Assembly: GCF_021390425.1 (NCBI RefSeq)
Contig: NZ_JAJUWY010000002.1
Span: 496,001 to 560,000 of the forward strand
DNA from: Lysobacter sp. GX 14042
GTDB taxonomy: Bacteria > Pseudomonadota > Gammaproteobacteria > Xanthomonadales > Xanthomonadaceae
Direction of reading: 5' to 3'
DNA: 64,000 bases
The number at the start of each line of letters is the position of its first letter. The stretch's first letter is position 1. Positions 29,571-51,035 of the stretch are shown here, piece after piece. The position numbers and the translations under genes are program-made. Below the pieces are notes generated by a model that did not search any database, was not told where the DNA came from, and saw nothing but the letters and a program-made list of their open reading frames with translations.

Positions 29571-29590
29571 GCGGGCGCGGCCGGTCGGCC

Positions 29591-30067: not shown

Positions 30068-30167
30068 TTCGGCTCCAGCGGATGCAACACCGGCGGCGTG
30101 GGCCTGCAAGTATCCGGCTGCCGCGGCAAGCGCGGGGTGAACCACGCCGCATCGGCGGATGAAGCAT

Positions 30168-30902: not shown

Positions 30903-30961
30903 CGGGGGCTCCTTGCGGCTGTTCCGGGGGCGCCAGCGTAGCGGCTGCGGCCGCTGCCGGC

Positions 30962-31402: not shown

Positions 31403-33750
31403 GCCGCTGCCTCCCGGCCGGCAACCGGCCGCCGCGCGATCAGCAGCGCCAGAACGAAGTTCCCGACCACGCCCAGCGCCACCGTACCGCCGATCGCCCG
31501 CAGCACCGGTATCGACGAACTCGCCAGCACCGCGAAGACCAGCAGGGTGGTGAGGCTGCACATGATGATCGCGTGCAGCGCCCGCACCTGGTTGGCGCGC
31601 GAATCACCGGCGTGGTCGAAGAACAACGCGTAGTCCAGGCCCAGGCCGGCGGCGAGGATCAACGCGACCAGGTGGAACAGGTTCAGCTCCACCCCGGCCG
31701 CGCGCAGCACCGCCAGCACCACCAGCGTGGTCAGCACCATCGGCGCCAGCACCCGCAGCACGCGCGGCGGCGAACGCAGGGCAACGGCGACCACCAGTCC
31801 CAGCAGTGCGAAGGCCCCCAGCAGGGTCCACAGCAGTCGGGTGCGGTATTCGGCCACCAGCGACTCGGAGGCCGCCTTGAGGTCCAGCAGTCGCGCCCCG
31901 TGCGACGCCAGCGCGGCCTCGAGCGTGTGCAGGTCGGTGATCCCGCTCAGCGAGACCAGGGCGATCGATTCGTCCCCGTAGGGCAGCAGCAGGCCCTCCA
32001 GCGGCACTGCCAACGGGGTGCCGGCCAGGGCTTCCGGTACCAGCGGGGCGGCGGTGCGGGCGGTCTCGACATCGGCCAGGAAAGGTTCGAACACGTCGCC
32101 GCGGAAGGGCGTGCCGTCCACCGCATCCTCCAGCGCCCCACGCAGCGCGGCCGGTTCCGGCAGGCGGTCCTGGCGGGCCCGTTGGGTGGCCGCGCTGGGC
32201 AGGTAGCGCGCGGCCAGGTCGTAGCCGGCCAGCACGCCGTCGCGGCGCAGCGCCTCCAGTACCGGCAGCAGGTGTTCGGAGGCCTGCAGCGCCGCCTCGC
32301 TGTCGGCGCCGCGGACTACCGCCAGGTGGCGCACGTCCGGGGCGCGCAGTTCGCGGCGCAGCACCGCGTCGGCCTGCAGCGAGGCCTCCGGCACCGGTGT
32401 CAGCCGCGACAGGTCGTTCTGCCAGAAGTGGCCCGGCATCCACCAGACCACGCCGGCGGCAAGGATCGCGATCACCAGGGCGGCGGTGCCGCCCAACCGC
32501 GGCAATGACTGCACTGCGCTCCACAGCCGCTGCATCCGCCTCGACTCCGCCGGGTCGGCGAACGCGCCGCGGCCGCTGCCGTCATCCAGCAGGGCCGGCA
32601 GTACGTAGCGGGTCGACAGCGCCGCCACCGCAAGCCCGGTGATGGTGAACACCGCCAGCTGCGCCAGCCCCTCGACCCCCGCCGCCAGGAAGGCCAGGTA
32701 GGCGATGCAGGTCGAGAGCACGCCGACCACCAGCGCCGGCCACAGCGCGCGCACGCTGGTCCAGGCCGACTGTCCGGCGCGCTGGTTGCTGAACAGGTGG
32801 ATCGGGTAGTCCTGCGCCACTCCCACCAGCGTGAAGCCGAACGCCAGGGTGATGCCGTGCACCGCCTCGAAACCGGCGACCACCGCGACCAGCCCCGCCA
32901 GCCCGCCGCTGGCCAGCGGCAGCGCGCCCAGCAGTGGCGCACGCCAGCTGCGGTAGGCGATCAGCAGCAACAGCACGAAGGCGACCGTGTCCATGCTGCC
33001 CAGCCGCGCGGCCTCCTCCCGGGTCCGGCCGCCGACCTCGACCGCGAACGCGCCCGGTCCGGTGATGACGATGTCCGAGCCGCTCTCCCCGCGCGCCTGG
33101 CGGAACGCCTCGCGCAGCGCCTCCACCGCCTGCGCCTGCCCGTCCGGGTCGAAGCCCGGCGCCATGGTCTGGACCAGCAGCAGCGCGCGGGCGCCGGCGG
33201 GGTCGAACCACACCCCGTGCCGCCGCGTGGGGGTGGCGGCGCCCTGCCACTGTTCGGCCAGGGCGAGGGTCTGCAGGGTCGGGTCGGAAGGCAGCAGCGG
33301 CTCCAGCCACTGGCCGACCGGCGAGCCCAGGTCCTGCAGCCGTGCCTGCAACTCTTCGTGCAGGTAATCCGGGTCCAGCGCCTGCCGGTCCAGGGTCGGG
33401 GCCAGCAGGTAGCGGTACGGGCGGAGTCCTTCGGGGATCTGGTCGAGGGTTGCCGCCTCGCCGTTGGCGACCAGGGCGAAGCGCGGATCGGCGGCAAGCG
33501 ACTGCCGGATCGCCGCGGACTGCGCGGCCAGTTGCTGCGGCTCCGCGCCTTCCAGGGCGATCAGCAACAGTCGCGAGCCGGGGCCCTCGCCCAGCCCCTC
33601 GAGCAGCAGCTTCTGCTCGGCGGTGCGCGGTTCGGGCATGAAGCGGCGCAGGTCGCCGGCGACCTCCAGGTTGCCGGCCAGCCAGGCGCCGGCCAGCGCG
33701 AGCAGCGCCAGCCACGCCAGCACCAGGGTCCAGCGGGCGGCCCGGCTCAT
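31399..33750 (-). CDS. MMPL/RND-type exporter
   Basis: 783 aa from the ATG that overlaps the upstream stop (ATGA); an earlier ATG at 33768 is less likely. Two repeats of an N-terminal helix, a large periplasmic domain and a five-to-six-helix bundle are seen (VAFVLLLLIAYRSWRAPLL; FGFTLVGVAQDYPIHLFSNQ; LHLVALILAAGLGLDYALFF-like). The conserved Asp-containing segments VAQDYPIHL and GLDYALFFDH lie in the helices where the proton relay is found. It is the predicted inner-membrane pump moving the polyene lipid outward. Confidence 0.9.
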   Translation of the reverse strand: MSRAARWTLVLAWLALLALAGAWLAGNLEVAGDLRRFMPEPRTAEQKLLLEGLGEGPGSRLLLIALEGAEPQQLAAQSAAIRQSLAADPRFALVANGEAATLDQIPEGLRPYRYLLAPTLDRQALDPDYLHEELQARLQDLGSPVGQWLEPLLPSDPTLQTLALAEQWQGAATPTRRHGVWFDPAGARALLLVQTMAPGFDPDGQAQAVEALREAFRQARGESGSDIVITGPGAFAVEVGGRTREEAARLGSMDTVAFVLLLLIAYRSWRAPLLGALPLASGGLAGLVAVVAGFEAVHGITLAFGFTLVGVAQDYPIHLFSNQRAGQSAWTSVRALWPALVVGVLSTCIAYLAFLAAGVEGLAQLAVFTITGLAVAALSTRYVLPALLDDGSGRGAFADPAESRRMQRLWSAVQSLPRLGGTAALVIAILAAGVVWWMPGHFWQNDLSRLTPVPEASLQADAVLRRELRAPDVRHLAVVRGADSEAALQASEHLLPVLEALRRDGVLAGYDLAARYLPSAATQRARQDRLPEPAALRGALEDAVDGTPFRGDVFEPFLADVETARTAAPLVPEALAGTPLAVPLEGLLLPYGDESIALVSLSGITDLHTLEAALASHGARLLDLKAASESLVAEYRTRLLWTLLGAFALLGLVVAVALRSPPRVLRVLAPMVLTTLVVLAVLRAAGVELNLFHLVALILAAGLGLDYALFFDHAGDSRANQVRALHAIIMCSLTTLLVFAVLASSSIPVLRAIGGTVALGVVGNFVLALLIARRPVAGREAAA

Positions 33751-34400
33751 CGGGCCGGCGCGTGGCACAGCGCGGCGAGCGCCTCCGGCGCCTCGAGACC
33801 GTGCGCGTCCATCGCCGCGCCGGCCAGCAGCGTGCGCTGTGGCGCCCCTGCCTCCGGAACCGCCTCGATGCAGCGCAGCTCGCTGCCGCGGCCCTTCAGG
33901 ATCAACGTTCCCAGCTGGCGCAGTGCGGCGTCCTTCGGCGCCAAGTGCAGCGTCCAGCGTTCCCGGCCGCCTTCGGCGCGCAGGTCGAACTCGCGCTCCA
34001 GCACGTCGCGGTCGCCGGCCAGCAGCGCCTCGAAGCTGCCGCGCAGGCCTGCCAGTTCCGGCGCACCGTCAAGCGACACCCGGCGCGGGTTGCGGCCGGC
34101 GCGCTCGATCACCGCCTCGCCGTCGCGCAGGGTCGTGGTTTCTGCATAGGGGACCTGGACCTCGCGCACCAGCACGTCGTCGGCAGGGCGCCGGTACTCG
34201 CCCTCCAGCCGCAACGGCGTCTTGAGCAGCCGCGACTGGCGCAGCTCGACGAACGGGGTGCGCGAGGGGGCCGGGCGCACCAGGCGCTCGAGGATCCAGC
34301 CGGCCTCGACGCCGGTGCCGGTCGACGGCTCAGCCGCCCTGGCGGCCGGCCAGGTGCCGGCCAGTGCCAACAGCATCGCTGCGGTGATCGCATGCTTCAT
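33747..34400 (-). CDS. LolA-like periplasmic carrier
   Basis: 217 aa. A signal peptide (MKHAITAAMLLALAGTWPAA) is followed by an open beta-barrel-like LolA-type pattern (LRLEGEYRRPADDVLVREVQ; LEREFDLRAEGGRERWTLHL). Aryl-polyene and xanthomonadin loci carry such a carrier, expected to take the pigment lipid from the MMPL pump across the periplasm. The start ATG lies 71 bp inside the end of the acyltransferase gene, an unusually long overlap for this operon, and the stop is joined to the pump gene by ATGA. Confidence 0.8.
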   Translation of the reverse strand: MKHAITAAMLLALAGTWPAARAAEPSTGTGVEAGWILERLVRPAPSRTPFVELRQSRLLKTPLRLEGEYRRPADDVLVREVQVPYAETTTLRDGEAVIERAGRNPRRVSLDGAPELAGLRGSFEALLAGDRDVLEREFDLRAEGGRERWTLHLAPKDAALRQLGTLILKGRGSELRCIEAVPEAGAPQRTLLAGAAMDAHGLEAPEALAALCHAPAR

Positions 34401-35295
34401 CGTTCTGCCAGAAGTCGTAGAAGTTGAACCAGTTGTACGGCGCGCTGCGGGCATGGTGCTCCAGCCGCGCGGCGTAGTCGCCCACCAGCGCGGGCAGTGC
34501 CACCGCCCGATCCTGCCGGCGCATGCGGATGCCCTCGCTGAACGGCTCGAACACCAGCCGGTAACGATTGCCGCCACGGTACAGGCCGAAGCCCAGTACC
34601 ACCGGCGCGCCGGTGGCGGCGGCGATCAGCCACGGTGCCTGCGGGAACGGCGCCGGGTGGCCGCAGAACTCCGCCGGCACGCTCGCCTGGCCTTCGTGGG
34701 CGCGGTCCACCAGCAGGGCCACCAGCGCGCCCTGCTCCAGTGCCTCGGCGATCGCCAGCGCGACGCCCGGTCCGTCGCGCCCGGCGTCGATGACGGTCCG
34801 CGCGACCTCGGGATTGAGCGCGTCCAGCAGCTGGGTCATCGCCGGATTGTGGCCGACGTCCAGCACCACCCGCAGGCGGATCTCCGGCCGGGTGCGGGCC
34901 AGCACCCGCAACACCTCGAAGCTGCCCAGGTGCGAGCCGAACATCAGCACCCCGCGGCCGGCTTCCAGCTGCCGGTGCAGCGCCTGCGCCCCTTCCACTT
35001 CGATCCGGAAACGCTCCAGCTCGCCGCCGAGCAGGAACACCCGGTCGAGGATCGTCGAGGCGAAGGCATGGATGTGTCGGGCCGTGCTCCACAGTCCGGC
35101 GCGGCGCCCGCCCACCCTGCGCAGCCAGTCCCTGGAAGCGCGCCGCTCCGGGCCACGCACCAGCAGGAAGTACAACGTGATCGGCAGCAGCAGCGCCCGT
35201 GAGACGGCCCGGCCACCATGGCGGGCGACACCGCGGATCATCCAGATCGCGATGCGGCCGCCGCCCTCCGGGCGCTGCCTCCAGTCCGCGTTCAT
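34330..35295 (-). CDS. lysophospholipid acyltransferase-like protein (LpxL/HtrB fold)
   Basis: 321 aa membrane-associated acyltransferase. It has a hydrophobic N-terminal segment (SRALLLPITLYFLLVRG), the HxxxxE catalytic motif GSHLGSFEVL (about residues 120-129), LLVDRAHEG, and the conserved end PYNWFNFYDFW. The last 20 residues or so after FYDFW are unlike the family and read through into the LolA-like gene, which may reflect a late frameshift. It is expected to join the polyene acyl group to a glycerol or lipid carrier. It starts by ATGA overlap with the dehydratase upstream. Confidence 0.83.
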   Translation of the reverse strand: MNADWRQRPEGGGRIAIWMIRGVARHGGRAVSRALLLPITLYFLLVRGPERRASRDWLRRVGGRRAGLWSTARHIHAFASTILDRVFLLGGELERFRIEVEGAQALHRQLEAGRGVLMFGSHLGSFEVLRVLARTRPEIRLRVVLDVGHNPAMTQLLDALNPEVARTVIDAGRDGPGVALAIAEALEQGALVALLVDRAHEGQASVPAEFCGHPAPFPQAPWLIAAATGAPVVLGFGLYRGGNRYRLVFEPFSEGIRMRRQDRAVALPALVGDYAARLEHHARSAPYNWFNFYDFWQNDEACDHRSDAVGTGRHLAGRQGG

Positions 35296-35588
35296 TCCCC
35301 GTCCCCGGCGCGGACTTCGCCGCTGGCCAGCAGGGCCTCGCCACGCAACACCCGGAAGCGCCAGCGCGGCGCTTCGCCGCCCAGCTCGATCCGCGCCCGT
35401 TCACCCGGCAGCAGCGGCTGGACGAACTTGACCCGCGGCAGCCGCAAGGGTCCATGGAGCGGGCCATGCGACTCGGCGATCGCCGCCAGCACCTTCTCCA
35501 GTACCACCACTCCGGGCACCACCGGCCGCCCCGGGAAGTGCCCGGGCAGGCAGGGATGGTCACGGGGAATGGCGAAGGTGGTCGACAC
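35292..35588 (-). CDS. small hot-dog dehydratase (ApeI-like)
   Basis: 98 aa. The catalytic hot-dog loop HPCLPGHFPGRPVVPGVVVL is clear, with the His of HFPG and the PVVPG turn. GTG start with GGAG about 8 nt upstream. The protein is shorter than FabZ (about 145) and so resembles the ApeI partner of the Ape dehydratase pair. The stop overlaps the acyltransferase ATG by 4 bp. It follows the membrane protein gene by 41 bp. Confidence 0.82.
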   Translation of the reverse strand: MSTTFAIPRDHPCLPGHFPGRPVVPGVVVLEKVLAAIAESHGPLHGPLRLPRVKFVQPLLPGERARIELGGEAPRWRFRVLRGEALLASGEVRAGDGE

Positions 35589-35629
35589 GCGCGGCTCCGG
35601 CTTTTGCGCGGCAAGGATAAGCCAGCCGC

Positions 35630-36328
35630 CTAGGGTGCCCGGCGGAACAGGTCGCGCCAGAATGCCGGTCCCAGCCGCAGCATCGCCCGGGCGAACGCCA
35701 GCGGCCCCTGGCGGCGCTCCGGGAACCGCCACTGGCGCCACAGGAACTCGACGACGAAGAACGCTGCGATGACACCGTGGTCGAGCAGGTTGGCGACCGT
35801 GGACCAGGCCTGCTGCGATACCGGCAGCGGCGGCGGGAGCCCCGCGCGCAACAGCAGTCCGTTGGGTTCGGCCAGCAGTGCCAGCACCAGGTTGGACAGG
35901 GTCATGCTCCCCAGCAGCACCGCCCAGGCGGCGGTCAGGCCACGGGCGTAGCGCGCCAGCGCCGGTTCCAGCGACCCGTCTGGCCCGCCCTCCAGCGCGG
36001 CGATGATGCGGGCGATCAGCGGTGTCCGGCCTGCAGCCAGGGAGCGCGCGAACCACCAGCCCAGCACCGCGGTGAACAGCATCGGCGGGAACAGCAGCAG
36101 CAGTTCCGGCACCGCTCCGGTCCGCAGTTGCCACAACACCCCGGCGGCGACGGCCAGCAACGCCCATGCCCACGCCCGGCCCCGCGCCAGCGGCTCCAGC
36201 ATCAGGACCAGCGCCAGGTCGAGCAAGGCCAGCCCGGCCAGCATGCCGTCGTGGCGGACGCTGGCGGCGTGGGCGAGCAACGGATAGGCCACTGCCAGCA
36301 GCAGCCGCACCGGCACCAGGCGGTCCAT
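35630..36328 (-). CDS. COG4648-type membrane protein of the pigment locus
   Basis: 232 aa with about six hydrophobic helices (LVPVRLLLAVAYPLLAHAAS; MLAGLALLDLALVLML; WALLAVAAGVLW; LLLFPPMLFTAVLGWWFARS; WAVLLGSMTLSNLVLALLA; VANLLDHGVIAAFFVVEFLW). Proteins of this kind recur in aryl-polyene and xanthomonadin clusters. Its topology suggests a transporter or assembly factor, but no reaction is known. The ATG at 36328 lies 7 bp after the ACP stop, so it is tightly coupled. Confidence 0.8.
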   Translation of the reverse strand: MDRLVPVRLLLAVAYPLLAHAASVRHDGMLAGLALLDLALVLMLEPLARGRAWAWALLAVAAGVLWQLRTGAVPELLLLFPPMLFTAVLGWWFARSLAAGRTPLIARIIAALEGGPDGSLEPALARYARGLTAAWAVLLGSMTLSNLVLALLAEPNGLLLRAGLPPPLPVSQQAWSTVANLLDHGVIAAFFVVEFLWRQWRFPERRQGPLAFARAMLRLGPAFWRDLFRRAP

Positions 36329-36335
36329 GGCGGCC

Positions 36336-36605
36336 TCAGGCGGCGCGGTTGCTCTCCACGTGCGCCGACAGCGCGCGCAGCGAAGCGAACACCTGGCGGT
36401 TGTCCTCCCCATCCGAGCGCAGCTGCACCCCGTAGCGCTTGCTGATCGCCAGCGACAGCTCGAGCGCATCGATGGAATCCAGCCCCAGCCCGTCACCGAA
36501 CAGCGGCGCCGCGGGGTCGATCGCGCCGGCCTCGACGTCCTCCAGGTTCAGGCTTTCGACCAGCAGGCGGGCGAGCTCGTTTTCGGCGGGGGTCTGTGCG
36601 GACAT
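36336..36605 (-). CDS. acyl carrier protein of the pigment locus
   Basis: 89 aa. The phosphopantetheine attachment Ser lies in GDGLGLDSIDALELSLAISK (D-S-I in place of the usual D-S-L). The start MSAQTPAENELARLLVESLN is helical, as in other ACPs. It is the first gene of the leftward operon, directly divergent from xanB2 with about 102 bp between them, so both probably share a regulatory spacer. Confidence 0.92.
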   Translation of the reverse strand: MSAQTPAENELARLLVESLNLEDVEAGAIDPAAPLFGDGLGLDSIDALELSLAISKRYGVQLRSDGEDNRQVFASLRALSAHVESNRAA

Positions 36606-36707
36606 CGGGGTACTTCCTGCAGGGACAAGCCGGGGAAAGATCAGTCATCCGCCCCGCCAGCGCAAGCCGCAGGGACCGCCGGTGCGGCAGGCGCGTATCA
36701 TCGGCGG

Positions 36708-37739
36708 ATGATCCCAGCAGCATCACGCGGCCCCGCAGCCGGCGCCGCAGACCCGGGCGCGAACCCGCGCTTGGCGGTCGAATACCACCATACCGACCCT
36801 GCCACCGTGCTCACCGACGACGATGTCCTGGCGGTGTTCGGATTCGGCCAAGACGCGCCCGTGGCGGACGATCCGCGCTTCCTGCGGGTCTCCCTGCAGC
36901 CGCATGGGCCGGCGCCGCTGGAAGTCTGGCGTACCGCCGGGCCGGTCCGGCGCGGGCGCGCCGGCGGCATCGCCTGGGCCGATGGCGGGGGGCTGCAGTT
37001 CGGCGCCATCGAGATCGGCGAGGTAGGCCCGGAAGGCCTGGAGGGCGCGGCGGAACAGGCTTACCGGCAGCTGCTTGGCTTCGTCGCCGGCCACGGCCAC
37101 CCGCACCTGCTGCGGATCTGGAACTACCTCGACGCGATCACCCTGGGCGAAGACGACGCCGAGCGTTACCGGCGCTTCTGCGTCGGCCGTGCGGCGGGCT
37201 TGGGCGAATTCGATACCCGCGGGCTGCCGGCCGCCACCGCGATCGGCCGCCGCGATGGCGACCGCCGCCTGCAGGTCTACTGGCTGGCCGGCATCCGGCC
37301 CGGCACCCCGCTGGAGAACCCGCGCCAGCTCAGCGCCTACCGCTACCCGCGCCGCTACGGTCCGCAGCCGCCCAGCTTCGCCCGCGCCATGCTGCCGCCC
37401 GACGGCAGCGACATGCCGCTGCTGCTGTCAGGCACCGCCGCGATCGTCGGCCACGAGTCGCGCCACGTCGATTCGCTGGAGACCCAGCTCGACGAGACCC
37501 TGGCCAACTTCGAGGCGCTGATCGGCGCCGCCCGCGTGCACCGGCCCTGCCTGCCGCCCGGCTTCGGGCCGGGCTCGCGGCTGAAGGTCTACGTACGCGA
37601 TGCCGACGCCCTGGGCCCGGCCGATGCGCTGCTGCGCCAGCGGCTCGGCGATGGCGTCCCGTACCTGCTGCTGCACGCCGCGGTCTGCCGGCGCGAACTG
37701 CGCATCGAGATCGACGGCACCCACGACGCCCCGCGCTGA
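36708..37739 (+). CDS. xanB2: XanB2-type chorismatase
   Basis: 343 aa. It cleaves chorismate to 3- and 4-hydroxybenzoate plus pyruvate by family analogy: 3-HBA for the xanthomonadin starter and 4-HBA for ubiquinone. Conserved blocks of the chorismatase family are LAVFGFGQDAPVADDPRFLR, HLLRIWNYLDAITLGEDDAE, ENPRQLSAYRYPRRYGPQPP, SFARAMLPP and LSGTAAIVGHESRH. The ATG at 36708 is followed by an Ala/Gly/Pro-rich leader before the domain starts, so the true N terminus may be slightly later. It is divergent from the ACP and anchors the pigment assignment. Confidence 0.93.
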   Translation: MIPAASRGPAAGAADPGANPRLAVEYHHTDPATVLTDDDVLAVFGFGQDAPVADDPRFLRVSLQPHGPAPLEVWRTAGPVRRGRAGGIAWADGGGLQFGAIEIGEVGPEGLEGAAEQAYRQLLGFVAGHGHPHLLRIWNYLDAITLGEDDAERYRRFCVGRAAGLGEFDTRGLPAATAIGRRDGDRRLQVYWLAGIRPGTPLENPRQLSAYRYPRRYGPQPPSFARAMLPPDGSDMPLLLSGTAAIVGHESRHVDSLETQLDETLANFEALIGAARVHRPCLPPGFGPGSRLKVYVRDADALGPADALLRQRLGDGVPYLLLHAAVCRRELRIEIDGTHDAPR

Positions 37740-37791
37740 GCGCCCCCGACCCGCTATCCTCCCCCAACCAAACTAACGATAGGGCGAACCA

Positions 37792-39127
<1,336 letters not shown>

Positions 39128-40696: not shown

Positions 40697-41494
40697 CTAC
40701 AACACCCGGAATTCGATGCGGCGGTTGCGGGCGCGGCCCTCGTCGGTGTCGTTGCCGGCGACCGGGCGGTCGGGGCCGAAGCCCTGCACGCCGAGGTGGT
40801 CGGCATTCACGCCGGCGGCCTCCAGGTAGGTCTTGACCGCGATCGCCCGCTGCAGGCTCAGCGCGACGTTGGCCTGCCGCGAGCCGACGCTGTCGGTGTG
40901 GCCGATCACCTGTACCTGCTGGTCGCCGATCTCCATCAGCGCCGCGGCCATCTCGTCGAGGATCGCCCGGCCACCCGCGGTCAGCTCGGCACTGCCGCTG
41001 CGGAATTCGATGATCCGGTCGGCCAGGGCCTGGTCGAGTACCGCCTGGCTGTCGCCGCCCCCGGCCTGCAGGCCGTTGCGCACCTGGTAGCCGGGCCCGG
41101 CGGCGGTGGCCAGCACGCTGGCGACCTGCTGGCGCCGGGCTTCGTTGCCGACCTGGCCCGTGATGCGCACGCTGCTGCCCTCGATCACCAGCTCGCCGCC
41201 GGAAACACCGGTGAGCGCCGGATCCAGCATTCCGGCGACCCGCTCGCCCCAGTTGGCCGGGGCGACCACCGCGCCGACCTCGATCCGATCCACGACCCGG
41301 GCGCTGCCGTACAGCTCGTGCAGCCGGGCCAGCACCGCGGCGCGGGTGGCCTCGTCGGGCACGGTGCCGGCGGCGATGACCGGCGCCACGGCAGGGCCCC
41401 GGGCCAATGCCGGCGTCGCGGCCAGCAGCAGCGGCAGCAGCAGCACGGCGGCCAGGCGCAGCTGGACGTTGGAGCGTCGGGAAACGTGGCGCAT
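40697..41494 (-). CDS. OmpA-family protein of the T6SS locus
   Basis: 265 aa. Signal peptide (LAAVLLLPLLLAATPALA), a BON-like middle domain (SSVRITGQVGNEARRQQVAS), and a C-terminal OmpA-type peptidoglycan-binding domain (IIEFRSGSAELTAGGR; QVIGHTDSVGSRQANVALSL; ARNRRIEFRVL). It is likely a periplasmic or outer-membrane protein that anchors the secretion machine to the cell wall, as TagL or Pal-like proteins do. It starts 1 bp after the tagF stop and is the last gene of the leftward T6SS operon. Confidence 0.85.
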   Translation of the reverse strand: MRHVSRRSNVQLRLAAVLLLPLLLAATPALARGPAVAPVIAAGTVPDEATRAAVLARLHELYGSARVVDRIEVGAVVAPANWGERVAGMLDPALTGVSGGELVIEGSSVRITGQVGNEARRQQVASVLATAAGPGYQVRNGLQAGGGDSQAVLDQALADRIIEFRSGSAELTAGGRAILDEMAAALMEIGDQQVQVIGHTDSVGSRQANVALSLQRAIAVKTYLEAAGVNADHLGVQGFGPDRPVAGNDTDEGRARNRRIEFRVL

Positions 41495-41495
41495 G

Positions 41496-42506
41496 TCAGA
41501 TCCCCAGGAAGGTACGGTTGAAGGCCTCGCGCGCGGTACGCAGGCTCAGGTCCCCGCGATCGAGGTGGCTGGCCAGCTTGTTGAGTCCGTAATCGGCGGC
41601 GAGCGGCTCGTCGACCCAGTCGGCGTCGTCGATCGCGATGAAGCGCTCGGCGCCCTCGGCGGGATCGAGCGCGGCGTGCAGGGTGCGGCCATCGGCACCG
41701 TTGAGGCCGACCAGCAGCCGGGGGCCGCCCTCCCCGTCGAGACCGCCGCCCTCCCGCACCAGCAGCACCAGCTCGAAGTCGGCGCGTGCCAGGAAGCCGG
41801 ACACCAGGTCGAGCCAGAACGCCGCCACCAGCGGGCGGTACAGGCCGTCGGCGGGCAGCGGCAGCGAAAGGCCCTTGTCGACGCCGCCACCGGCCGCCGC
41901 CACCGGCTGCATCAGCAATCCCAGCGCCGGCAGCATCCGCCTCAGGCACAGCCGCGGATGGCCGGAACCCTGCAGCAGCGCCTGCAGCGTGCCCAGGTCC
42001 TGCAGCTCGAGGAAGTCGGCGAAGGCGGCATCCCAGGCCTGCGGCTCGGCACTGATCGACAATCGGGTGGCGGCGATCTCGCGCAGCGCCGCCGCGGTAT
42101 CGTCGGCCCCCAGCGCCTGCTGCCCCAGCCGCGCCATCAGCGACCAGGGCCGTGCCAGCGCCAGCGGGCTGCGGCCGATGAACGACAGCGGCCGCAGTAC
42201 CTCCAGCCGGGTCGCGATCAGGAAGGGGAAGCGCCGGCCGGAGGCATCGCGGCTGGGCAGGAAGTGCCCGCCGATGACGACCCGACTGCCCGAACCCAGG
42301 AAAGCGAAGTGCAATGGCCGCGCCTGGTCGTAGAGCTGGCGCCAGGCCGGATTGCCGGCCATCTGCTCCAGCGCCTGACCGGTCCAGCGGTCGAGCATCT
42401 GCATCAGCTGGTGGTTGCCGTCGCCACCGACGAAGTCGCCGCGGCTGGGCAGCTTGCCGAAGCAGCCGACCGGCAGGCGGATGTCCTGGAGTTCGGCGAC
42501 GCCCAT
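41496..42506 (-). CDS. tagF: type VI secretion-associated protein TagF
   Basis: 336 aa. COG3913/TagF family signature at the N terminus: VGCFGKLPSRGDFVGGDGNH, then RSPLALARPWSLMARL and PFLIATRLEVLRPLSF. The C terminus carries the ASHLDRGDLSLRTAREAFNR region. TagF proteins repress assembly of the T6SS at the post-translational level in Pseudomonas; a similar role is inferred here. The start is coupled to tssM by a TGATG overlap (ATG at 42506), and the OmpA-family gene starts 1 bp after its end. Confidence 0.9.
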   Translation of the reverse strand: MGVAELQDIRLPVGCFGKLPSRGDFVGGDGNHQLMQMLDRWTGQALEQMAGNPAWRQLYDQARPLHFAFLGSGSRVVIGGHFLPSRDASGRRFPFLIATRLEVLRPLSFIGRSPLALARPWSLMARLGQQALGADDTAAALREIAATRLSISAEPQAWDAAFADFLELQDLGTLQALLQGSGHPRLCLRRMLPALGLLMQPVAAAGGGVDKGLSLPLPADGLYRPLVAAFWLDLVSGFLARADFELVLLVREGGGLDGEGGPRLLVGLNGADGRTLHAALDPAEGAERFIAIDDADWVDEPLAADYGLNKLASHLDRGDLSLRTAREAFNRTFLGI

Positions 42507-45500
42507 CACGGCACTCCGGCCGGGCTGGCGACCACGCCGCCGCCGGAACTGCCGGCGGGCTCCGGTCCCAGCGTGCCAGCGACCTGCGGGGGCAGGCGCA
42601 GGCCCAGCGAATCACTGGCGGTGGCATTGGGCTGCACCGCGCTGACGATGCGCAGCTCGACGGCCACTTCGGCACCGTCGCGCTTCCAGGCCAGCCGGTA
42701 GTGCTGATCGCCGATCCGGCTTGCCTCCGCGGCGGCGAACATGGCCTCGGTGGCACCGGCGCCGGGTGCGTTGAACACCTGCACCTCGCGCCCGTCGCCG
42801 GTGACCGCGGTGATCTCCACCCCGGGCACCCCCTCGCCGGGCAGCTGGAAGGTGTGCCATTGCGGCGGGGTGTTGCGGTAGCGCATGCGCTGGCCGTCGA
42901 CCACCAGCGAGTACTCGCGCCCCGTGGCCGCCATCGGCAGCACCTGGAACACCATCTGCGGGCTGTCGGCCGCGCTCCCGCCCACCCACTGCCCGTAGCC
43001 GCCGACCAGTTCCGGACTCAGGCTGATGCCGATGTCGGCCCAGCGCCGCGGGGTCAGGGTATTGCCACGGCGGATCACCAGCGTGCCCAGGGCCTCCTCG
43101 CCAAAGCGCGCGATCGCCCCGGAAGGCCCGAAGATCCGGTCGATGTCGCCGCGCGCGGCCTCGACGTCGGCGCCGGCGGCGTAGGGATAGCGCCGGCCGA
43201 TCCCGTCCTCGAACGGCTGGTGCACCTGCGCCGCCCAGGTGCGGTTGAGCTCGGCCTCGGTCGGCGCGACCAGCGCGGCGAAGCCCTGCACCAGCGGGCG
43301 CAGCAACAACGGCCGCAGCACCTCGCGCTGGCCCGCTTCCAGGCCGTTGAGCATCTGCTCGTCGACCAGCCGCAGGGCGACCGAAAGTTCCGAACCCTCG
43401 GCATCGAGCGTCTGCTGCATCAGCTTGCGCGCGCCCGGACCGGGGTCGCCCTGGGTGTGGAGGGCGTTGAAACGGCTGCGTACCGCGCCCAGCGCCTCGA
43501 AGTAGCGGTCCAGCAGTGGCGGGCCGCCTTCATGCCCGGCGAGCAGCCGGGCCAGCCCGGCGAACTGGCGACCGACCGGCCCCGCCCCGGCCGGCTCCTG
43601 CGCCCCGGATGCGCCGGTGCCGGAGTCGACCTGCACCGCGACCGGAGTGGGGTTGCGCCGCATCACCACCCGGTTGAACCAGGCGACGATGCCGCCGCGT
43701 GCGGCTCCGGCCAGTGCGTTGGCAGCGGCCGGGTTGTCCCACACGGTTTCCCGGTTCACCGCCTGCAGCAGTGCGCGCAGCGGCGAGGCGGATGGATCGC
43801 CGAGGCTGTTCATGCGCTCCACCGCGTCCTCGAAGTCGCCGAAGCGGGCCACGCTCACGCCCTGCAGGAAGCGCTGCCACTCCCCGGCGTACTCGGTCTT
43901 GTACAGCCCGGTCAGCTCGCGGGTGATGTGTTCCGGGCTGCCGGCGAGGGTGAGGTCGTTCTGCACGGTCGACTCGAGTACCCAGTCGGTGCTGCTGAGC
44001 TCGGTACCGGCGGCCTCGGCGATCGCATCGGCGACGTACTCTTCCCAGGCCTTGCGGGTGAACGCGCCGGAGACCTGGTGGCTGCCGGTGAGCAGCCCCC
44101 CGGAATGGTCTTCGCCCAGCAAGCCGGCAACGGTGGCGGGACTGAAGCGGGTTGCCGCGCGGGCCTTGATCTGGGCATACACCCGGTCGCGCGCGGACGC
44201 GCCGCGCATGACCTGCCGCAGTGCCTGCCGGCTGTCGTCGACCAGGCCGTAGCGCGCATCCACCAGGGGCCAGCCGGGCCGGTCGGCCTGGCGCACGTGG
44301 TAGCTCATCAGCCGGCCCGCCGCACGCAGCATGTCCTCGCGCGGCATGTCGCCGCGGTTGGCCTCCAGCCAGCCACGCCAGAAGCGGGTCAGCTGGTCGC
44401 CCAGGTGCACGCCCTCCACCCGGGCCGGATCGGCCAGCATGAGGTAGGTCTTGAGCGCGTTGTAGGCGTCCTGCGAGTCGGTCGGCGAGGCCTCCTCGTA
44501 CAGCCGGGCCGGGCTCCCACCGGCGCCAGCGCTGGCATCGGCTCCGTCCTCGTCCGTACCGGGGCCGTGGCCACCGGATCCGGCAGCCGCGGCGCCGACC
44601 GGCGGACGCAGCGCCGCGCGGTTGGCGACCACCTGCGACAGGTAGTCCTCCAGCCGGGTGGCCACCGGCACGAGCATCACCTGGCGCATGCCGTCGAAGT
44701 ACTCCTGGCGCAGCTTCGCCTCCATCGCCCCGCCCTGGTACAGGCCGAAACCCAGCCCCAGCGGACGGTCCTGGCGGTAGCGCTCGAGTTGCTCGAGCCG
44801 GTCCTGCAGCACCAGCAGCGCCTCGATGCGCGAGCCCAGGCCGAACGAGCCCTCCTGCACCGCGACCGCCTTGTCCAGGTCGGCGGCGACGTCGGCGACC
44901 AGCTGGCGGTTGCCGGTGTAGGACCAGGTCCATGCCGCCAGCGCTCCGCCCAGCAGCAGCACCGCCCCGAAGAACGCCGCGTGCCGCAACCGGGTCCGGG
45001 TCCGGCTGGCGTACTGCCTGACCAGCCCGCGATCGGCGAAGATCACCCGGCGGAACAGGCCCTGCAGGAAATAGCTGGCATCCGCCGGCGGCACCGGCGC
45101 GGCATCGCCGGTGCCGGCATCCAGCTGGAACTGGCGGCCGACGCGCTCGGATGCCGGCTGCACCGCCACGCCTTCCTGCAGCGCGCTGGTGAAGTAGAAG
45201 CCGCGGAACACCGGTTTGAACTGGTAGGGGTTTTCCTCGAACAGGGTTGCGATGAAGGTCCGCAGCGCCGGCTTGATGCCGGTGAACTCCATCGGCATGG
45301 TCAGCAGCCCCGGCGCCAGCTCGCGTCCGCGGGCCATTGCCATCTGGGCCAGCCCGGTCTCGCGCAACCCGTCGGCGAGCTCGTCGAAGTGGCGGTCGAA
45401 GGTGGCCAGTGCATCGTCCTGCGCCCCGACCCCGTAGGGCAGCGTGGCGCCCCAGGCGTTCTCGCGCTCGGACGGGTCCAGGCCCTGGAAGAAATCGGAG

Positions 45501-46309
45501 AAACCGTTGATCAGGTCGGCCTTGGTGAACACCACGTAGACCGGGGCGTGGACCTCCAGCCGCTCGGTCAGCTCCTGCACGCGCTGGCGCAGGTTCTTGG
45601 CCAGGTCGATGGCGAACTCGGGCTTGCTGCCCGACAGCTCGGCGATCGAGGCGGCGATGAGGATCCCGTTGATCGGCGCGCGCGGCCGATGCTTCTTCAG
45701 CAGGTCGAGGAAGGTCAGCCACTCCAGCCGGTCCTCGGCACTGACCGAGTAGCGCCCGGCGGTGTCGAGCACGATGCCCTCGGTAGTGAAGTACCAGTCG
45801 CAGTTGCGGGTGCCACCCAAGCCGTGGATCACCGCGCTGCGGTTGTCCTCGAACGGGAAGCGCAGCCCGGAATTGAGGATCGCGGTGCTCTTGCCGGCGG
45901 CCGGGTTGCCGATGATCACGTACCACGGCAGCTCGTACAGGGCGGCGGTGCCGCGGGCCTGGCCGATGCGCGAGGTCTTGATCGCCTTGACCGCCTCGGC
46001 CATGCGCCCACGCAATGCCTCGGCCTGCGCCTTCGCCGCCGGTTCGGCGCTGGCGACCGCCTGGTCGGCCTGGCCGGCCACCATCGCGTCCAGCCCGGCA
46101 CCGGCCCTGCGTGCCCGGTAACGCCGCACCGCCATCAGCAGCAGCCAGGCCAGCACCGCCACGACCACGGCCGCCAGCAGCCAGCCACCGGCCGCGAGCA
46201 GGCCGTCCTTGCCGAAGTACGCCACCGCGCCCGCGGCCAGCAATGCGAGCGCACCGAGCACGCGGTAGTCGCTCAACCAGTAGCGCAGGTTCATCCAGAA
46301 ACTTCTCAT
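42506..46309 (-). CDS. tssM: T6SS core membrane protein TssM (IcmF)
   Basis: 1267 aa, inner-membrane core of the type VI membrane complex. N-terminal hydrophobic pair (YRVLGALALLAAGAVAYFG; GWLLAAVVVAVLAWLLLMAV), then a GTPase-like domain with Walker A (IIGNPAAGKSTAILNSGL) and Walker-B-like GIVLDTAGRY. VYVVFTKADLINGFSDFF and a third membrane helix (FFGAVLLLGGALAAWTWSY) precede a large periplasmic domain. The Walker A Lys is intact, unlike in some TssM proteins. tssL and tssK, usually adjacent, are not here. Confidence 0.93.
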   Translation of the reverse strand: MRSFWMNLRYWLSDYRVLGALALLAAGAVAYFGKDGLLAAGGWLLAAVVVAVLAWLLLMAVRRYRARRAGAGLDAMVAGQADQAVASAEPAAKAQAEALRGRMAEAVKAIKTSRIGQARGTAALYELPWYVIIGNPAAGKSTAILNSGLRFPFEDNRSAVIHGLGGTRNCDWYFTTEGIVLDTAGRYSVSAEDRLEWLTFLDLLKKHRPRAPINGILIAASIAELSGSKPEFAIDLAKNLRQRVQELTERLEVHAPVYVVFTKADLINGFSDFFQGLDPSERENAWGATLPYGVGAQDDALATFDRHFDELADGLRETGLAQMAMARGRELAPGLLTMPMEFTGIKPALRTFIATLFEENPYQFKPVFRGFYFTSALQEGVAVQPASERVGRQFQLDAGTGDAAPVPPADASYFLQGLFRRVIFADRGLVRQYASRTRTRLRHAAFFGAVLLLGGALAAWTWSYTGNRQLVADVAADLDKAVAVQEGSFGLGSRIEALLVLQDRLEQLERYRQDRPLGLGFGLYQGGAMEAKLRQEYFDGMRQVMLVPVATRLEDYLSQVVANRAALRPPVGAAAAGSGGHGPGTDEDGADASAGAGGSPARLYEEASPTDSQDAYNALKTYLMLADPARVEGVHLGDQLTRFWRGWLEANRGDMPREDMLRAAGRLMSYHVRQADRPGWPLVDARYGLVDDSRQALRQVMRGASARDRVYAQIKARAATRFSPATVAGLLGEDHSGGLLTGSHQVSGAFTRKAWEEYVADAIAEAAGTELSSTDWVLESTVQNDLTLAGSPEHITRELTGLYKTEYAGEWQRFLQGVSVARFGDFEDAVERMNSLGDPSASPLRALLQAVNRETVWDNPAAANALAGAARGGIVAWFNRVVMRRNPTPVAVQVDSGTGASGAQEPAGAGPVGRQFAGLARLLAGHEGGPPLLDRYFEALGAVRSRFNALHTQGDPGPGARKLMQQTLDAEGSELSVALRLVDEQMLNGLEAGQREVLRPLLLRPLVQGFAALVAPTEAELNRTWAAQVHQPFEDGIGRRYPYAAGADVEAARGDIDRIFGPSGAIARFGEEALGTLVIRRGNTLTPRRWADIGISLSPELVGGYGQWVGGSAADSPQMVFQVLPMAATGREYSLVVDGQRMRYRNTPPQWHTFQLPGEGVPGVEITAVTGDGREVQVFNAPGAGATEAMFAAAEASRIGDQHYRLAWKRDGAEVAVELRIVSAVQPNATASDSLGLRLPPQVAGTLGPEPAGSSGGGVVASPAGVP

Positions 46310-46325
46310 CGCGGTACGTCCATGT

Positions 46326-47807
46326 TCATGCGGTCACCGCTTCGGCGATGGAGGGGTCTGCAACGGCTGCGGAGTGGCCGGCCGCTTCCGGTGCCGCGGA
46401 GAGCGCCAGGGCAGTGCGCCGGGTGTCACCGGCCAGCGCCAGCACCAGCATTGGCGCTCCGGCCTGGCGCACCTGCGCGGCGGCGGCTGCCAGGAGCACC
46501 AGCGGTGCGGCAATGCCGGTATCGCCGCAGGCGATGCCAAGGTGGCGGGCCACCTCGACCGGGTCGGACTCCGGCAGTGCGCCGGTGATGGCCCCGGCGG
46601 CTTCCACCGCCCGGCTGGGGCGATGGTCGGCATCGGTGAACACCAAGATGTCGGGTCCGGCCTGCAGCGTGGCGGCTTCCAGCGCGGTCCGGAGCAGGCG
46701 CGCGGAGTCCGCGGCGGCGGCGCGCCCGCGGCTGGCGGGCGCATGGCAACACGCGTGCAGCCTCAGCGGGCGGTCCGGGTCCGCACTGTCACCGGCCGGC
46801 GTGAGCAGCAGCCCGGCCGCGGCTTCGCCGGGGATCCGCCCTTCCGGATGGCCGCTCACCAGCAGGGCGCCCTGGGCTTCCAGCTGCGCGATTACGCGCG
46901 GGTCCAGCATCGAATCGGTGGCCAGCAGCAGGTGGCGGGCACCCGGCTCCGGGTCGGCCGCCGCAAGGCGGTCGAGCAGGTGCCAGCACTGCCCGGCCTC
47001 GGCGACGGAGTGCAGCTGGACCGCGACCCGATCCCCGCCCAGGCCGGCCGTGCCTGCCAGCGCCACCACCCGCGCCACGGCCGCTTCATGCAGGGTGGGC
47101 GCCCAGCTGGCCGGCAACAGCAGGTGTACCTGCAGCGGTGGCGCCCAGGGAGTCTCCGCCTGCGATTGCGCCGAGCGCGAATGGTGCATCGCATGCGGAT
47201 GCAGGCCGTCCGCGGTGCCCGCCGCCGTGCGTGGCGGCGCTTCCGCGGCATCCAGCGCACGCGCGGCCAGCAGCAGCGCCTCCGCCACCGGATCGAGCAG
47301 CGCAAGCGCGCGCAACGCATGCAGTGGCGCCGCATTGCGGAGCCCGCCGGGCCCCGCCGCCAGCACGTGGGCAACGGAGCCGGGATCGGCTTCTTCGATT
47401 CCCGCCGCGAACACCGGCAACCCCATCGAATCACGCAGGTCCGGGTGCAGCGGCGGACGCGTGGGGCGTGCCAGGGCATCGGCGAGGGCGGCCGGATCGG
47501 TGCCGAGGCGGGTCCAGGTCGCGGTCGAATGGATCAGCAGCGGGCGCCTCGGCCCGGAAGCGGCAGCCGCCACGGGCGGGGCTTCGTTCTTCCCGGCAGC
47601 GCCGGCCGTCCGGCGGCGGCGCAGCAGTGCCCGCCCTCCGAGCACCACCCCCAGCAGCAACAACGGCAGGACCAGCAACCAGGCCACCAGGCGCCCCGCC
47701 GTGACCTCGGCCCCGGCCGCACGCCAGTACGCCACCGCGCCCAGCCAGGTGAGCCCGAACACCAGCGCACCCAGGCCGAGCACGCGCAACAGCGGCGCCG
47801 CTTTCAC
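46326..47807 (-). CDS. membrane-anchored ketosynthase-like pseudoenzyme of the T6SS locus
   Basis: 493 aa. Two hydrophobic segments at the N terminus (about residues 7-28 and 41-63) are followed by a soluble domain. Its second half follows a thiolase/KS plan: HLLLATDSMLDPRVIAQLEA (292-312), then SGHPEGRIPGEAAAGLLLTP (318-337), matching the DS-LDP...GxxPGEAA stretch of ketosynthases, and SDPVEVARHLGIACGDTGIA (414-433) in the place of the C-terminal region. The canonical GxxCASG nucleophile motif is not seen, although Cys274 lies near that position; the catalytic His pair is also unclear. So it is probably non-enzymatic. It lies 16 bp upstream of tssM. Confidence 0.65.
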   Translation of the reverse strand: MKAAPLLRVLGLGALVFGLTWLGAVAYWRAAGAEVTAGRLVAWLLVLPLLLLGVVLGGRALLRRRRTAGAAGKNEAPPVAAAASGPRRPLLIHSTATWTRLGTDPAALADALARPTRPPLHPDLRDSMGLPVFAAGIEEADPGSVAHVLAAGPGGLRNAAPLHALRALALLDPVAEALLLAARALDAAEAPPRTAAGTADGLHPHAMHHSRSAQSQAETPWAPPLQVHLLLPASWAPTLHEAAVARVVALAGTAGLGGDRVAVQLHSVAEAGQCWHLLDRLAAADPEPGARHLLLATDSMLDPRVIAQLEAQGALLVSGHPEGRIPGEAAAGLLLTPAGDSADPDRPLRLHACCHAPASRGRAAAADSARLLRTALEAATLQAGPDILVFTDADHRPSRAVEAAGAITGALPESDPVEVARHLGIACGDTGIAAPLVLLAAAAAQVRQAGAPMLVLALAGDTRRTALALSAAPEAAGHSAAVADPSIAEAVTA

Positions 47808-47953: not shown

Positions 47954-48832
47954 TCAATAACCGGCGGCGCGGCGGGCCTCACGGCAGGCATCGCGCGCCT
48001 CCACGTGCACGTAATCCTTCAGGCTGCGCCAGTTGCCGCCCCATTCGAGCCCGGCGTCGGTGGCCAGCCGGCCGTACAGCAGATAGCCACGGCGGGTCCA
48101 CGGGTCGCCCATGTCCCACTGCAGGCGCCCGTCGCGATACAGCGCGCTGTCGACCGCCAGGCCGTACTGGTGGCAGCTGCGGCCGGCGCCGGCCAGGGTG
48201 GTGCCGCTTCCGCGGCGCGCCAGCTCGGCCTGGCGCCCGGGGCTGCGGTAGCCCTCGACCAGCACCATGCGGTAGCCCTGCCGGGCCATCGCCTGGTGGA
48301 TCGCCAGCAGCTGTTGGCGCAACCCGGCGTCGACCCGGTCCCAGCGCCGGTCGGCACTGGCGATTGCCCGTGGCACCGCCGCGCCCGCGGCGCTGCGCTG
48401 CAGTTCCGCCTCGGCGGCGGTGAACACCGCGGGCGGCAGGTCCGGGGGCGGGGCCAGCCGCTCACCACGCAGCAGGTCCAGGACATGGCGGTCGGCGGCC
48501 GTGACCACCGCCGGGTCGAGTCCTTCGAGCACCACCTCGCGACGCACGGTCATGACCAGCAGCGGAGGCAACGCCAGCAACACCAGGGCCAGCACGGCCA
48601 GCCGGCGGTGGCGGTGCAGGAATCCCGCCAGCCCGCGAACGCGCTGCCGCAGCATCCGGGTGATGCCATCCGCCCGGCGGCCAGCGCCGGCCTGCATCCG
48701 TCCGCCGACCCAGGCCAGCCGTCCCAGCGCGCGCCCGACCCCGGCCGCCACCCCGTCGCGGGCCGCCGGGAACAGCGCCAGCCAGGCCGCCGCCACGCTG
48801 AGCAGGAAGAACACCGCCATCCAAAGCACCAT
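47954..48832 (-). CDS. VanY-type M15 peptidase, TagX-like
   Basis: 292 aa. Two hydrophobic segments (about 4-22 and 76-95) put the C-terminal domain in the periplasm. The M15 metallopeptidase domain has GRSCHQYGLAVDSALY (His221, Asp228) and WRSLKDYVHVEAR (His276), the three zinc ligands, preceded by VLVEGYRSPGRQAELARRGS. By analogy with TagX of Acinetobacter it may cut peptidoglycan to let the secretion apparatus through. It lies 146 bp upstream of the pseudo-ketosynthase gene. The ATG at 48832 is the first Met before the anchor. Confidence 0.82.
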   Translation of the reverse strand: MVLWMAVFFLLSVAAAWLALFPAARDGVAAGVGRALGRLAWVGGRMQAGAGRRADGITRMLRQRVRGLAGFLHRHRRLAVLALVLLALPPLLVMTVRREVVLEGLDPAVVTAADRHVLDLLRGERLAPPPDLPPAVFTAAEAELQRSAAGAAVPRAIASADRRWDRVDAGLRQQLLAIHQAMARQGYRMVLVEGYRSPGRQAELARRGSGTTLAGAGRSCHQYGLAVDSALYRDGRLQWDMGDPWTRRGYLLYGRLATDAGLEWGGNWRSLKDYVHVEARDACREARRAAGY

Positions 48833-49002
48833 CCCTGGGCCCTCCGTGGTCCGGAGGCGGATTGTCCCTGCCGGGAGCGGCGATGACCAGCGGCCCCGGC
48901 CAGGGCGCAATTGACGGCCCGGACGCCGGCAGCCCAGAATGCCGGCGCCCGTGTCCCCGGCGATGCGGCGTGCCGGGCGGACCGGCAAGGAAAGGAGACC
49001 AG

Positions 49003-49842
49003 GTGGAACGGCACGATGCCATGACCCGCCGCCCGAGCCTGCTGGCCGGCGGCCCGGAGCCCGCGAACCACGCCGTCGCGTGCGAACGCATTCTTCCGTC
49101 GATCGATGCCGCCCCCGCCGGGGCGCCGGCGCGTCCGCCTGCCCGCGCGCGGACCTGGTTGCTGGCGCTGGCCGCACTCGCCCTGGTCGCGGCCGCGATG
49201 GCGTGGCTGCAGCGGCCGGCACCGGAGCCGGCAGTGATGGCGCCGACCGCCGCCACTCCTCCCGGCGACGGGCATGCCCGGGCGAGCGGCGCGGCCACCA
49301 TCATCGAAGACATGGCGCTGCCCACGGAAGTCGCATTGGGGCCTTCGGCCATCCCGCGCGCGGCCCCGTCGCCCGCACCGGGCGGGACCGCCGCGGCGAC
49401 GGAGGTGGAGGCTGCCGGATCCGCCCCCGACTCGCCGTTTGCATCGCTGGCGAACGCCGGGAACACAGCGGGCGCACGCAACCCGTTTGCCGAAAGCCGT
49501 GCGCCTGCCGACCGGCACGCAACGCCGCGCCCACGCGCGGCGACACCGGCCACGAGCGGCGATTCCCCCGCCCTGCTCGCGACCCTGCTCGGGCACATCA
49601 ACACCCGCCCGGAGGCCGGGCCGCACCCGCAATCAGGGATGGACCGGATGGTCGGGCAACTGGCGCGCGAGGGTGCGATTGCCGCGCCGCAGGCACAGGC
49701 CCCGGGCGCGGAATTCAGGTCCTGGCAGATCCAGCTGAACCTGCGCGAGTGTCCCCCGGCCAACACCGCCAGGGGCGTGGCCTGCCGGAAGGCGATCTGC
49801 GAGGTCTACGCAGGGCGGGACCCGGCCTGTCCGGCGGGGTGA
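49003..49842 (+). CDS. single-pass membrane protein of unknown function next to T6SS genes
   Basis: 279 aa from the GTG at 49003, preceded by AAAGGAGA with good spacing. One membrane helix (TWLLALAALALVAAAMAWL, residues about 50-68) is followed by a Pro/Ala/Gly-rich periplasmic linker. The C-terminal module has four Cys (QIQLNLRECPP, GVACRKAICEVYAG, RDPACPAG). I do not recognise the family. It is divergent from the TagX-like gene, so it may belong to the secretion locus as an accessory or may be unrelated. A longer open frame starts at 48862 but the upstream part has no support. Confidence 0.6.
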   Translation: MERHDAMTRRPSLLAGGPEPANHAVACERILPSIDAAPAGAPARPPARARTWLLALAALALVAAAMAWLQRPAPEPAVMAPTAATPPGDGHARASGAATIIEDMALPTEVALGPSAIPRAAPSPAPGGTAAATEVEAAGSAPDSPFASLANAGNTAGARNPFAESRAPADRHATPRPRAATPATSGDSPALLATLLGHINTRPEAGPHPQSGMDRMVGQLAREGAIAAPQAQAPGAEFRSWQIQLNLRECPPANTARGVACRKAICEVYAGRDPACPAG

Positions 49843-50018: not shown

Positions 50019-51035
50019 CTACCAGACCACCTCGGCCATCGAGCAGTTCAGGCCCGAGCCGATGCCCAGCAGCCCGATCCGGTGGCCCTTCTGCAGGCGG
50101 CCCATCTCGCGCAGCTTGCTGAGCACGATCGGCACCGAGGCCGGGCCGATGTTGCCGTGCTCGCCGAAGATGGTCAGCACCTTGCGCGGGTCGATGCCCA
50201 TGGCCTTGGTGAAGGCGGCGGTGTGCACCTTGCTGACCTGGTGGATGACGTACTCGTCCAGCCCGTCGGCGGCCCAGCCCAGCTTGGTCGTGGCGACCTG
50301 GAAGGTCTTCTGCGCCAGCTTGACGCCTTCCAGCAGCAGCATGCGGGTGTCGGTGACCATGCCGTCGATGTTGCCGCGGCACAGCTTGTTCCACTGGGTG
50401 GCCGCGCGGGTCACCCCGCCGCGGTAGCGCGGCGCGCCCGGAACCAGCTCCGCGCGCGCCATCACCATGGCCGCCGCACCCGAGCCGAGCGTCAGGGTGG
50501 CCAGTTCGTTCCTGAAGTCCTCGGCGGTCGAGTCGGCGCGCATCATGCGCTCCAGGGTCTTCTCGTAGGCCAGGTCGGCGGTCTCGCCGTCGACCACCAG
50601 GGCGTAGTCGATCTCGCCGCGCTCGATCATCCGGCTGGCGATGTCCATGCCGTTGATGAAGGCCAGGCAGGCGTTGGCGACGTCGAAGTTCTGGCAGTCC
50701 TCCGACAGTCCCAGGTTGCCGGACACGATCGAGGCGGTGGACGGCTCGAGGTAGTCGCGGCTGACCGAGGTGTTGACCAGCAGGCCGACCTTGTCCGGAT
50801 CGATGCCGGCATCGGCCAGCGCCTTCACCGCCGCCAGGGTGGCCGCATCGGACGCGTTCATGTCGCCGTCCCACAGCCGCCGCTCATGCACCCCGGCGAC
50901 ATCGCCGAACACGTCGGCCCGGATGCCCAGCCTGTCGAGGGTGGGCTTCAGGCGTGCATTGATCTCGACCGAGCTCAGCCGACGCGGAGCGTCGATGTGG
51001 GCCAGGCCGGCGATGGCAACGTGTTGGAAGAGCAT
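50019..51035 (-). CDS. oleA: OleA, acyl-CoA condensing enzyme for long-chain olefins
   Basis: 338 aa, thiolase fold (FabH-like). It performs a non-decarboxylative Claisen condensation of two fatty acyl-CoAs, giving a 2-alkyl-3-keto acid, the first step of head-to-head hydrocarbon synthesis. The nucleophile is Cys123 in FDVANACLAFINGMD, with the conserved Glu97 in SVSRDYLEPSTAS. VIHQVSKVHTAAF and GEHGNIGPASVPIVLSK carry the His and Asn. The whole protein is very close to the Xanthomonas enzyme as I remember it. oleB, oleC and oleD are not seen in the 50 kb to the left or 13 kb to the right. Confidence 0.93.
   Translation of the reverse strand: MLFQHVAIAGLAHIDAPRRLSSVEINARLKPTLDRLGIRADVFGDVAGVHERRLWDGDMNASDAATLAAVKALADAGIDPDKVGLLVNTSVSRDYLEPSTASIVSGNLGLSEDCQNFDVANACLAFINGMDIASRMIERGEIDYALVVDGETADLAYEKTLERMMRADSTAEDFRNELATLTLGSGAAAMVMARAELVPGAPRYRGGVTRAATQWNKLCRGNIDGMVTDTRMLLLEGVKLAQKTFQVATTKLGWAADGLDEYVIHQVSKVHTAAFTKAMGIDPRKVLTIFGEHGNIGPASVPIVLSKLREMGRLQKGHRIGLLGIGSGLNCSMAEVVW

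Follow-up and report, generated by a model that had tools for sequence, protein, structure and literature searches.

The closest described system is the type VI secretion system (T6SS) of Acinetobacter baumannii, in which the gene adjoining tssM encodes TsmK, a protein with two membrane helices and a predicted pseudo-ketosynthase domain (Kandolo 2023, PMC10564176). A. baumannii TsmK binds TssM, TssL, TagX and TssK, and deletion of its gene leads to the full loss of Hcp secretion (PMC10564176). TsmK has been termed Acinetobacter-specific in two papers, and it was proposed to compensate, together with a GS-linker in TssM, for an absent TssJ; TsmK, the GS-linker and the absence of TssJ mostly coincide across 807 Acinetobacter genomes (PMC10564176). 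The published cut-off for TsmK is a BLAST E-value of at most 1e-20 with at least 60% coverage in UniRef90, using the A. baumannii query, and sequences from outside Acinetobacter are not counted as TsmK under it (PMC10564176). A ketosynthase-type fold is also featured in Tla3 (DUF2875, PDB 8YZ3), a T6SS lipase adaptor of Pseudomonas aeruginosa that, unlike TsmK, is cytoplasmic, effector-specific, encoded in a vgrG island and not needed for T6SS function. Thiolase-like proteins are further encoded in the synteny type A clusters of PMC11883445, and Proteus mirabilis needs its thiolase-like protein for killing by the cluster effector. The original prediction for the locus described here had held that ketosynthase folds are not known in a secretion role, a statement refuted by TsmK (PMC10564176) and Tla3 (PDB 8YZ3). 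The kind of protein is thus already known, and what this locus adds is its wide range, its coexistence with TssJ and its link to relatives encoded in spike clusters.

The window is a 64,000-nucleotide stretch of the Lysobacter sp. GX 14042 genome and contains the following T6SS genes.

40697-41494, minus strand: tagN-like gene for an OmpA-family peptidoglycan-binding protein (PF00691, E 8.8e-23)
41496-42509, minus strand: tagF (TIGR03373, E 2.1e-31; PF09867, E 1.5e-24)
42506-46309, minus strand: tssM, 1267 aa (TIGR03348, E 2.8e-196)
46326-47807, minus strand: tsmK-like gene, 493 aa, GTG start (ORF call)
47954-49222, minus strand: tagX-like gene for a peptidoglycan endopeptidase of the M15_4/VanY type (PF13539, E 1.6e-13), the true start probably lying inside this ORF
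48862-49842, plus strand: candidate tagY, divergent, with one hydrophobic stretch (position and orientation only)

A single intact ORF of 493 codons fills 46326-47807, so the predicted coordinates are correct and the strand, which had been left unstated, is minus. The tsmK-like gene lies upstream of tssM with 16 bp between the two, the same spacing as originally given. The tagX-like product carries the domain given for TagX by Weber 2016 and is 36% identical to Paraburkholderia TagX, while the tagN-like product is 53% identical to the Paraburkholderia OmpA-family protein encoded after tagF. The candidate tagY yielded zero Pfam matches and no BLAST match to the Paraburkholderia gene; a tagY upstream of tagX in reverse orientation was described by Spiewak 2019. 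No vgrG is located beside the tsmK-like gene. TssM is present in a single copy in the genome, its search match consisting of two pieces of one frame, and no GS-linker (GxxGxxxGxxG) was found near its C terminus. The genome also encodes one TssK, one TssJ (G000:C18:55949-56437) and one TssC, all on contig C18 together with tssH, G, F, E, hcp and tssB. With one of each component distributed over two contigs, the genome therefore encodes a single T6SS split over two loci; comparable splitting has been reported for Xanthomonas fragariae.

The tsmK-like gene product was modelled with AlphaFold2 from the window protein and 55 relatives (mean pLDDT 89.7, pTM 0.83). Membrane helices are predicted at residues 3-31 and 37-72, in agreement with the two transmembrane helices first proposed, and are followed by an alpha/beta ketosynthase domain at about residues 90-471. 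A basic RALLRRRR stretch lies after helix 2, and from this stretch and the model we infer that the ketosynthase-fold domain is cytoplasmic. Foldseek analysis of the model against the PDB provided 833 matches at E of 0.001 or below, the best 50 of which are of the ketosynthase/polyketide-synthase type, plus Tla3. The top match was the actinorhodin chain length factor (1TQY chain B, E 1.9e-10) and Tla3 (8YZ3) ranked eighth (E 1.7e-9). TM-scores by query length are modest among the matches listed, mostly 0.41-0.52, in line with the two extra helices and large insertions of the window protein. Structure prediction and Foldseek thereby confirm, in the model, the thiolase/ketosynthase fold that had been suspected. 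With a viral fold library, the sole significant matches were four ketosynthase-type proteins; a search of solved structures with the single window sequence gave one meaningless match only. The window protein shares the fold and the PGE(G)xA motif region with the chain length factor and FabF-type enzymes, but it differs from them in having no catalytic triad, two added membrane helices and another genetic context.

The condensing-enzyme motifs quoted in the original prediction are present as DSMLDP from residue 298, PEGRIPGEAAAG from residue 321 and the C-terminal GDTGIAAPLVLLAAAAA, and they fall within the most conserved part of the family. They are not chance resemblances, because P326-G327-E328 and A330-A331-G332 are invariant among the 56 relatives and each of these also matches the 3-oxoacyl-ACP-synthase model PRK06147 of NCBIfam (best E 3e-11; window protein 4e-7). 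The window protein scores 29.6 bits against PRK06147 (NF004798), far under the curated cut-off of 342 bits, and has zero Pfam matches at E up to 1. Of the features of an active beta-ketoacyl synthase, it shows neither a score above the PF00109/PF02801 cut-off nor the Cys-His-His triad. With the secondary-structure elements of FabF aligned by eye, we take the nucleophile to lie at approximately V268-A269, the first catalytic His in the loop 390-396 and the second at 429. Among the 56 relatives, no Cys near 268 and no His at the first His position is conserved, and the GH of the second His is kept in 11, position 429 being His in these 11/56 and D or E in 28/56. The window protein lacks all three catalytic residues, in keeping with the missing nucleophile motif and His pair of the original prediction. 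The loop region instead carries D392 in 53/56 relatives and D394, R396 and E402 in 48/56 each, forming a conserved replacement motif, S-D392-A-D394-H/Q-R396-x-S-R-x-x-E402. Found across the family, this motif points to re-use of the site for binding more than to simple decay.

The comparison gene of A. baumannii (L146:3276-4688), encoding TsmK (AsaB, A1S_1301), was recognised by its position before tssM, its length and its topology. BLASTP of the window protein against A. baumannii TsmK gave an E-value of 1e-11 and 52.4 bits over residues 1-412, versus 26.6 bits for the best of 500 shuffled versions, and hhalign of the 56-member profile against TsmK gave an E-value of 6.3e-15. The two proteins are just 21% identical; the similarity spans the helices and most of the domain but leaves the C-terminal 80-150 residues or so unaligned. 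Both proteins have two N-terminal membrane helices with a cytoplasmic pseudo-ketosynthase domain, and in both genomes the gene directly precedes tssM in the identical order tsmK-tssM-tagF-tagN. The BLASTP result, the shuffle control, the hhalign result and this gene order therefore point to TsmK by descent, and the window protein is quite probably the Xanthomonadaceae counterpart of TsmK, a non-enzymatic scaffold acting alongside TssJ. Judged by the pairwise E-value of 1e-11, it probably misses the published BLAST cut-off, and its assignment to TsmK is based on synteny, topology and profile homology. Unlike the A. baumannii system, the window genome has TssJ, a TssM without the GS-linker and a tagX immediately upstream, and the window protein keeps an intact PGExAAG motif where A. 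baumannii TsmK has IPAEFAAS. AsaA/TslA was dropped as a candidate counterpart, being a periplasmic helical protein.

One scan of GTDB genomes provided 156 relatives, of which 80 were kept. These include members of Lysobacter, Luteimonas, Xanthomonas, Stenotrophomonas, Pseudoxanthomonas, Thermomonas, Bordetella, Achromobacter, Aquabacterium, Massilia, Duganella, Variovorax, Janthinobacterium, Alloalcanivorax and others. The pairing with tssM is a recurrent one: in 72/72 scorable loci of Xanthomonadaceae, Burkholderiales and Alloalcanivorax, tsmK immediately precedes tssM in the same orientation (gap -10 to 66 bp), and tagF and tagN follow tssM. In 61 loci, a gene of the M15 type (TagX-like) is found a short distance upstream. 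The exceptions to the pairing are loci at contig ends and two from Massilia (L113 and L126, 7956-9356), in which no tssM follows the tsmK-like gene for 7.9 kb; TssM is missing altogether from one of these two genomes. In a search of 101 genomes from the window's wider group, 10/10 members of the genus had tsmK, as did six further genera of the family. G024 and G059 have the same TssM type but no tsmK, and tagX, tssM, tagF and tagN are present without tsmK in Paraburkholderia and in these two genomes, showing that tsmK is dispensable for this type of locus. At the tsmK position, Paraburkholderia has a protein of 164 residues that represents the C-terminal part of TagX and not TsmK. Among the relatives marked in the tree as lacking TsmK, L086, L096, L108, L123 and L127 were rejected as losses, as they contain cut or short ORFs instead.

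The order tagX-tsmK-tssM-tagF-tagN is also kept in three genomes without TssC or TssJ, namely G004 (L. defluvii, L031), G005 (L034) and Luteimonas cucumeris (L055). G004 and G005 lack TssK as well, and the tagX of G005 is a short 146-aa ORF only. These three loci are an orphan membrane-complex module without a sheath.

The model of Kandolo 2023, that TsmK and the TssM GS-linker stand in for a lost TssJ by stabilising the membrane complex, accords with the coincidence of the three traits in Acinetobacter (PMC10564176) and with the GxxGxxxGxxG linker found in TssM of the A. baumannii locus L146. Against it, TssJ is present in 50/56 searched entries (a set that includes the tsmK-less G059 and, judged by size, contig and gene coordinates, counts one L. 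defluvii genome twice, as G004 and G466), among them 29 named genomes with exactly one TssM and the window genome itself. The GS-linker is absent from the window TssM and most TssMs checked; four Achromobacter alone carry it at a corresponding position near the C terminus, and two further matches are located elsewhere. The Acinetobacter combination of a missing TssJ and a TssM GS-linker is absent here and is taken to belong to the Acinetobacter system and not to define the protein itself. The TssM tree places Acinetobacter within the tsmK-bearing clade, with weak local support (0.51), and the three genuine tsmK-less loci (L147, L148, L150) branch among loci that have tsmK, a pattern read as loss of tsmK; such loci are under-represented because the sample was drawn by TsmK similarity. 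The wide spread of TsmK beside an intact TssJ argues against TsmK existing to replace TssJ, and for this family the stand-in model appears quite improbable. An active acyl- or lipid-handling enzyme modifying the membrane or a protein near the T6SS would fit the ketosynthase fold and the GH retained in 11/56 relatives. With no conserved nucleophile Cys or first His, D or E at 429 in half the family (28/56) and none of the three catalytic residues in the window protein, such an activity is highly improbable.

A more plausible, though still unlikely, alternative is a membrane-tethered, Tla3- or thiolase-like cargo adaptor that would deliver loaded VgrG or PAAR spikes to the membrane complex instead of stabilising TssL-TssM. 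The nearest sequence family of the window protein is PRK06147 and not a lipid enzyme; hhalign to the member L136 gave an E-value of 1.6e-8 over the C-terminal half. In the loci of the true members L136 and L138, the PRK06147 gene lies between DUF2169-like and DUF4150-like genes and next to a vgrG-like gene, neighbours recognised by sequence start and gene order rather than family search, and the PRK06147 proteins are probably the thiolase-like proteins of synteny type A (PMC11883445). PRK06147 is also the best sequence family of every relative, and its proteins share the T6SS association and, in L136, the absence of catalytic residues at the equivalent places, but they are about 345 aa long, have no membrane helices and are encoded in a spike cluster instead of beside tssM. 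Tla3 has the same fold and a weak profile similarity to the C-terminal part of the window family (E 2.5e-5); PF20995 (Tla3/DUF2875) weakly matches 2/56 relatives and has no match in the window protein. Against a cargo adaptor, tsmK is tied to tssM and not to vgrG or effector genes, and TsmK co-varies with TssM (r = 0.90 between the distances, 0/999 permutations, although shared species history alone can yield such a correlation). Furthermore, all Hcp secretion needs TsmK in A. baumannii, whereas Tla3 serves one effector.

A membrane-complex scaffold remains the preferred role. An origin among T6SS pseudo-ketosynthases appears more likely than fresh recruitment from fatty-acid synthesis because of the hhalign match to L136, the lack of a useful match to the window's own ketosynthase (26373-27917) and the fold and sequence similarity to Tla3. 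We tentatively propose, as a possibility somewhat short of even, that TsmK, the PRK06147 thiolase-like proteins and Tla3 form one T6SS-dedicated superfamily of dead ketosynthases. Under this proposal TsmK would be a spike or effector adaptor that gained a membrane anchor, was present in the ancestor of this entire T6SS clade and docks the loaded baseplate or spike; Acinetobacter would have lost TssJ later, and TsmK would not have evolved as its replacement.

In the preferred reading, TsmK would be held in the inner membrane by its two N-terminal helices with the ketosynthase-fold domain in the cytoplasm, where it would most likely serve as a non-enzymatic scaffold stabilising the TssL-TssM core. 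By analogy with the A. baumannii protein (PMC10564176), it may contact TagX and dock the baseplate through TssK. In the window lineage it would work together with TssJ, which would place its role on the cytoplasmic side and not in replacing the outer-membrane lipoprotein; the motif of the former His loop (D392/D394/R396/E402) is a putative reused binding site. TsmK is best read as an ancient scaffold at the cytoplasmic side of the TssJLM complex, and the degenerate, membrane-anchored ketosynthase of a T6SS locus with a structural rather than catalytic role, as originally predicted, is supported in each of these respects. TsmK thereby changes from an Acinetobacter-specific protein to one of a broad T6SS clade that normally also has TssJ, and its function can therefore be tested in TssJ-positive strains and has to be accounted for without invoking a loss of TssJ. 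Through the link to the spike-cluster pseudo-ketosynthases, TsmK can be given a simpler origin than one by recruitment out of fatty-acid metabolism, and the ligand of the dead ketosynthase pocket becomes a common question for three T6SS protein families.

Several further loci were observed. L152:6229-7257 and L153:6136-7173 encode PRK06147 proteins, dead ketosynthases of about 345 aa, in vgrG-DUF2169-DUF4150-like clusters. The TssM C-terminus of the four Achromobacter loci (L074, L077, L098, L110) contains the sequence GAGGSEPGSQG, in agreement with the GS-linker pattern that was described as specific to Acinetobacter. Duganella G503 encodes several TssM and two TssC, with no TssJ by TIGR03352. 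In the window, a FabH-like protein (PRK09258, E 3.9e-136) is encoded at 50019-51035 on the minus strand, about 2 kb from tsmK, and no search linked the two. The possibility that the tsmK-like gene strayed from the pigment-type biosynthetic cluster located at around 26-37 kb was rejected, given the lack of a profile match to the window ketosynthase and the strict linkage to tssM. This cluster (26373-37801) encodes ketosynthases, a dehydratase, a reductase, an acyltransferase, an MMPL transporter and a chorismatase-like protein, and resembles an aryl polyene or xanthomonadin pigment cluster.
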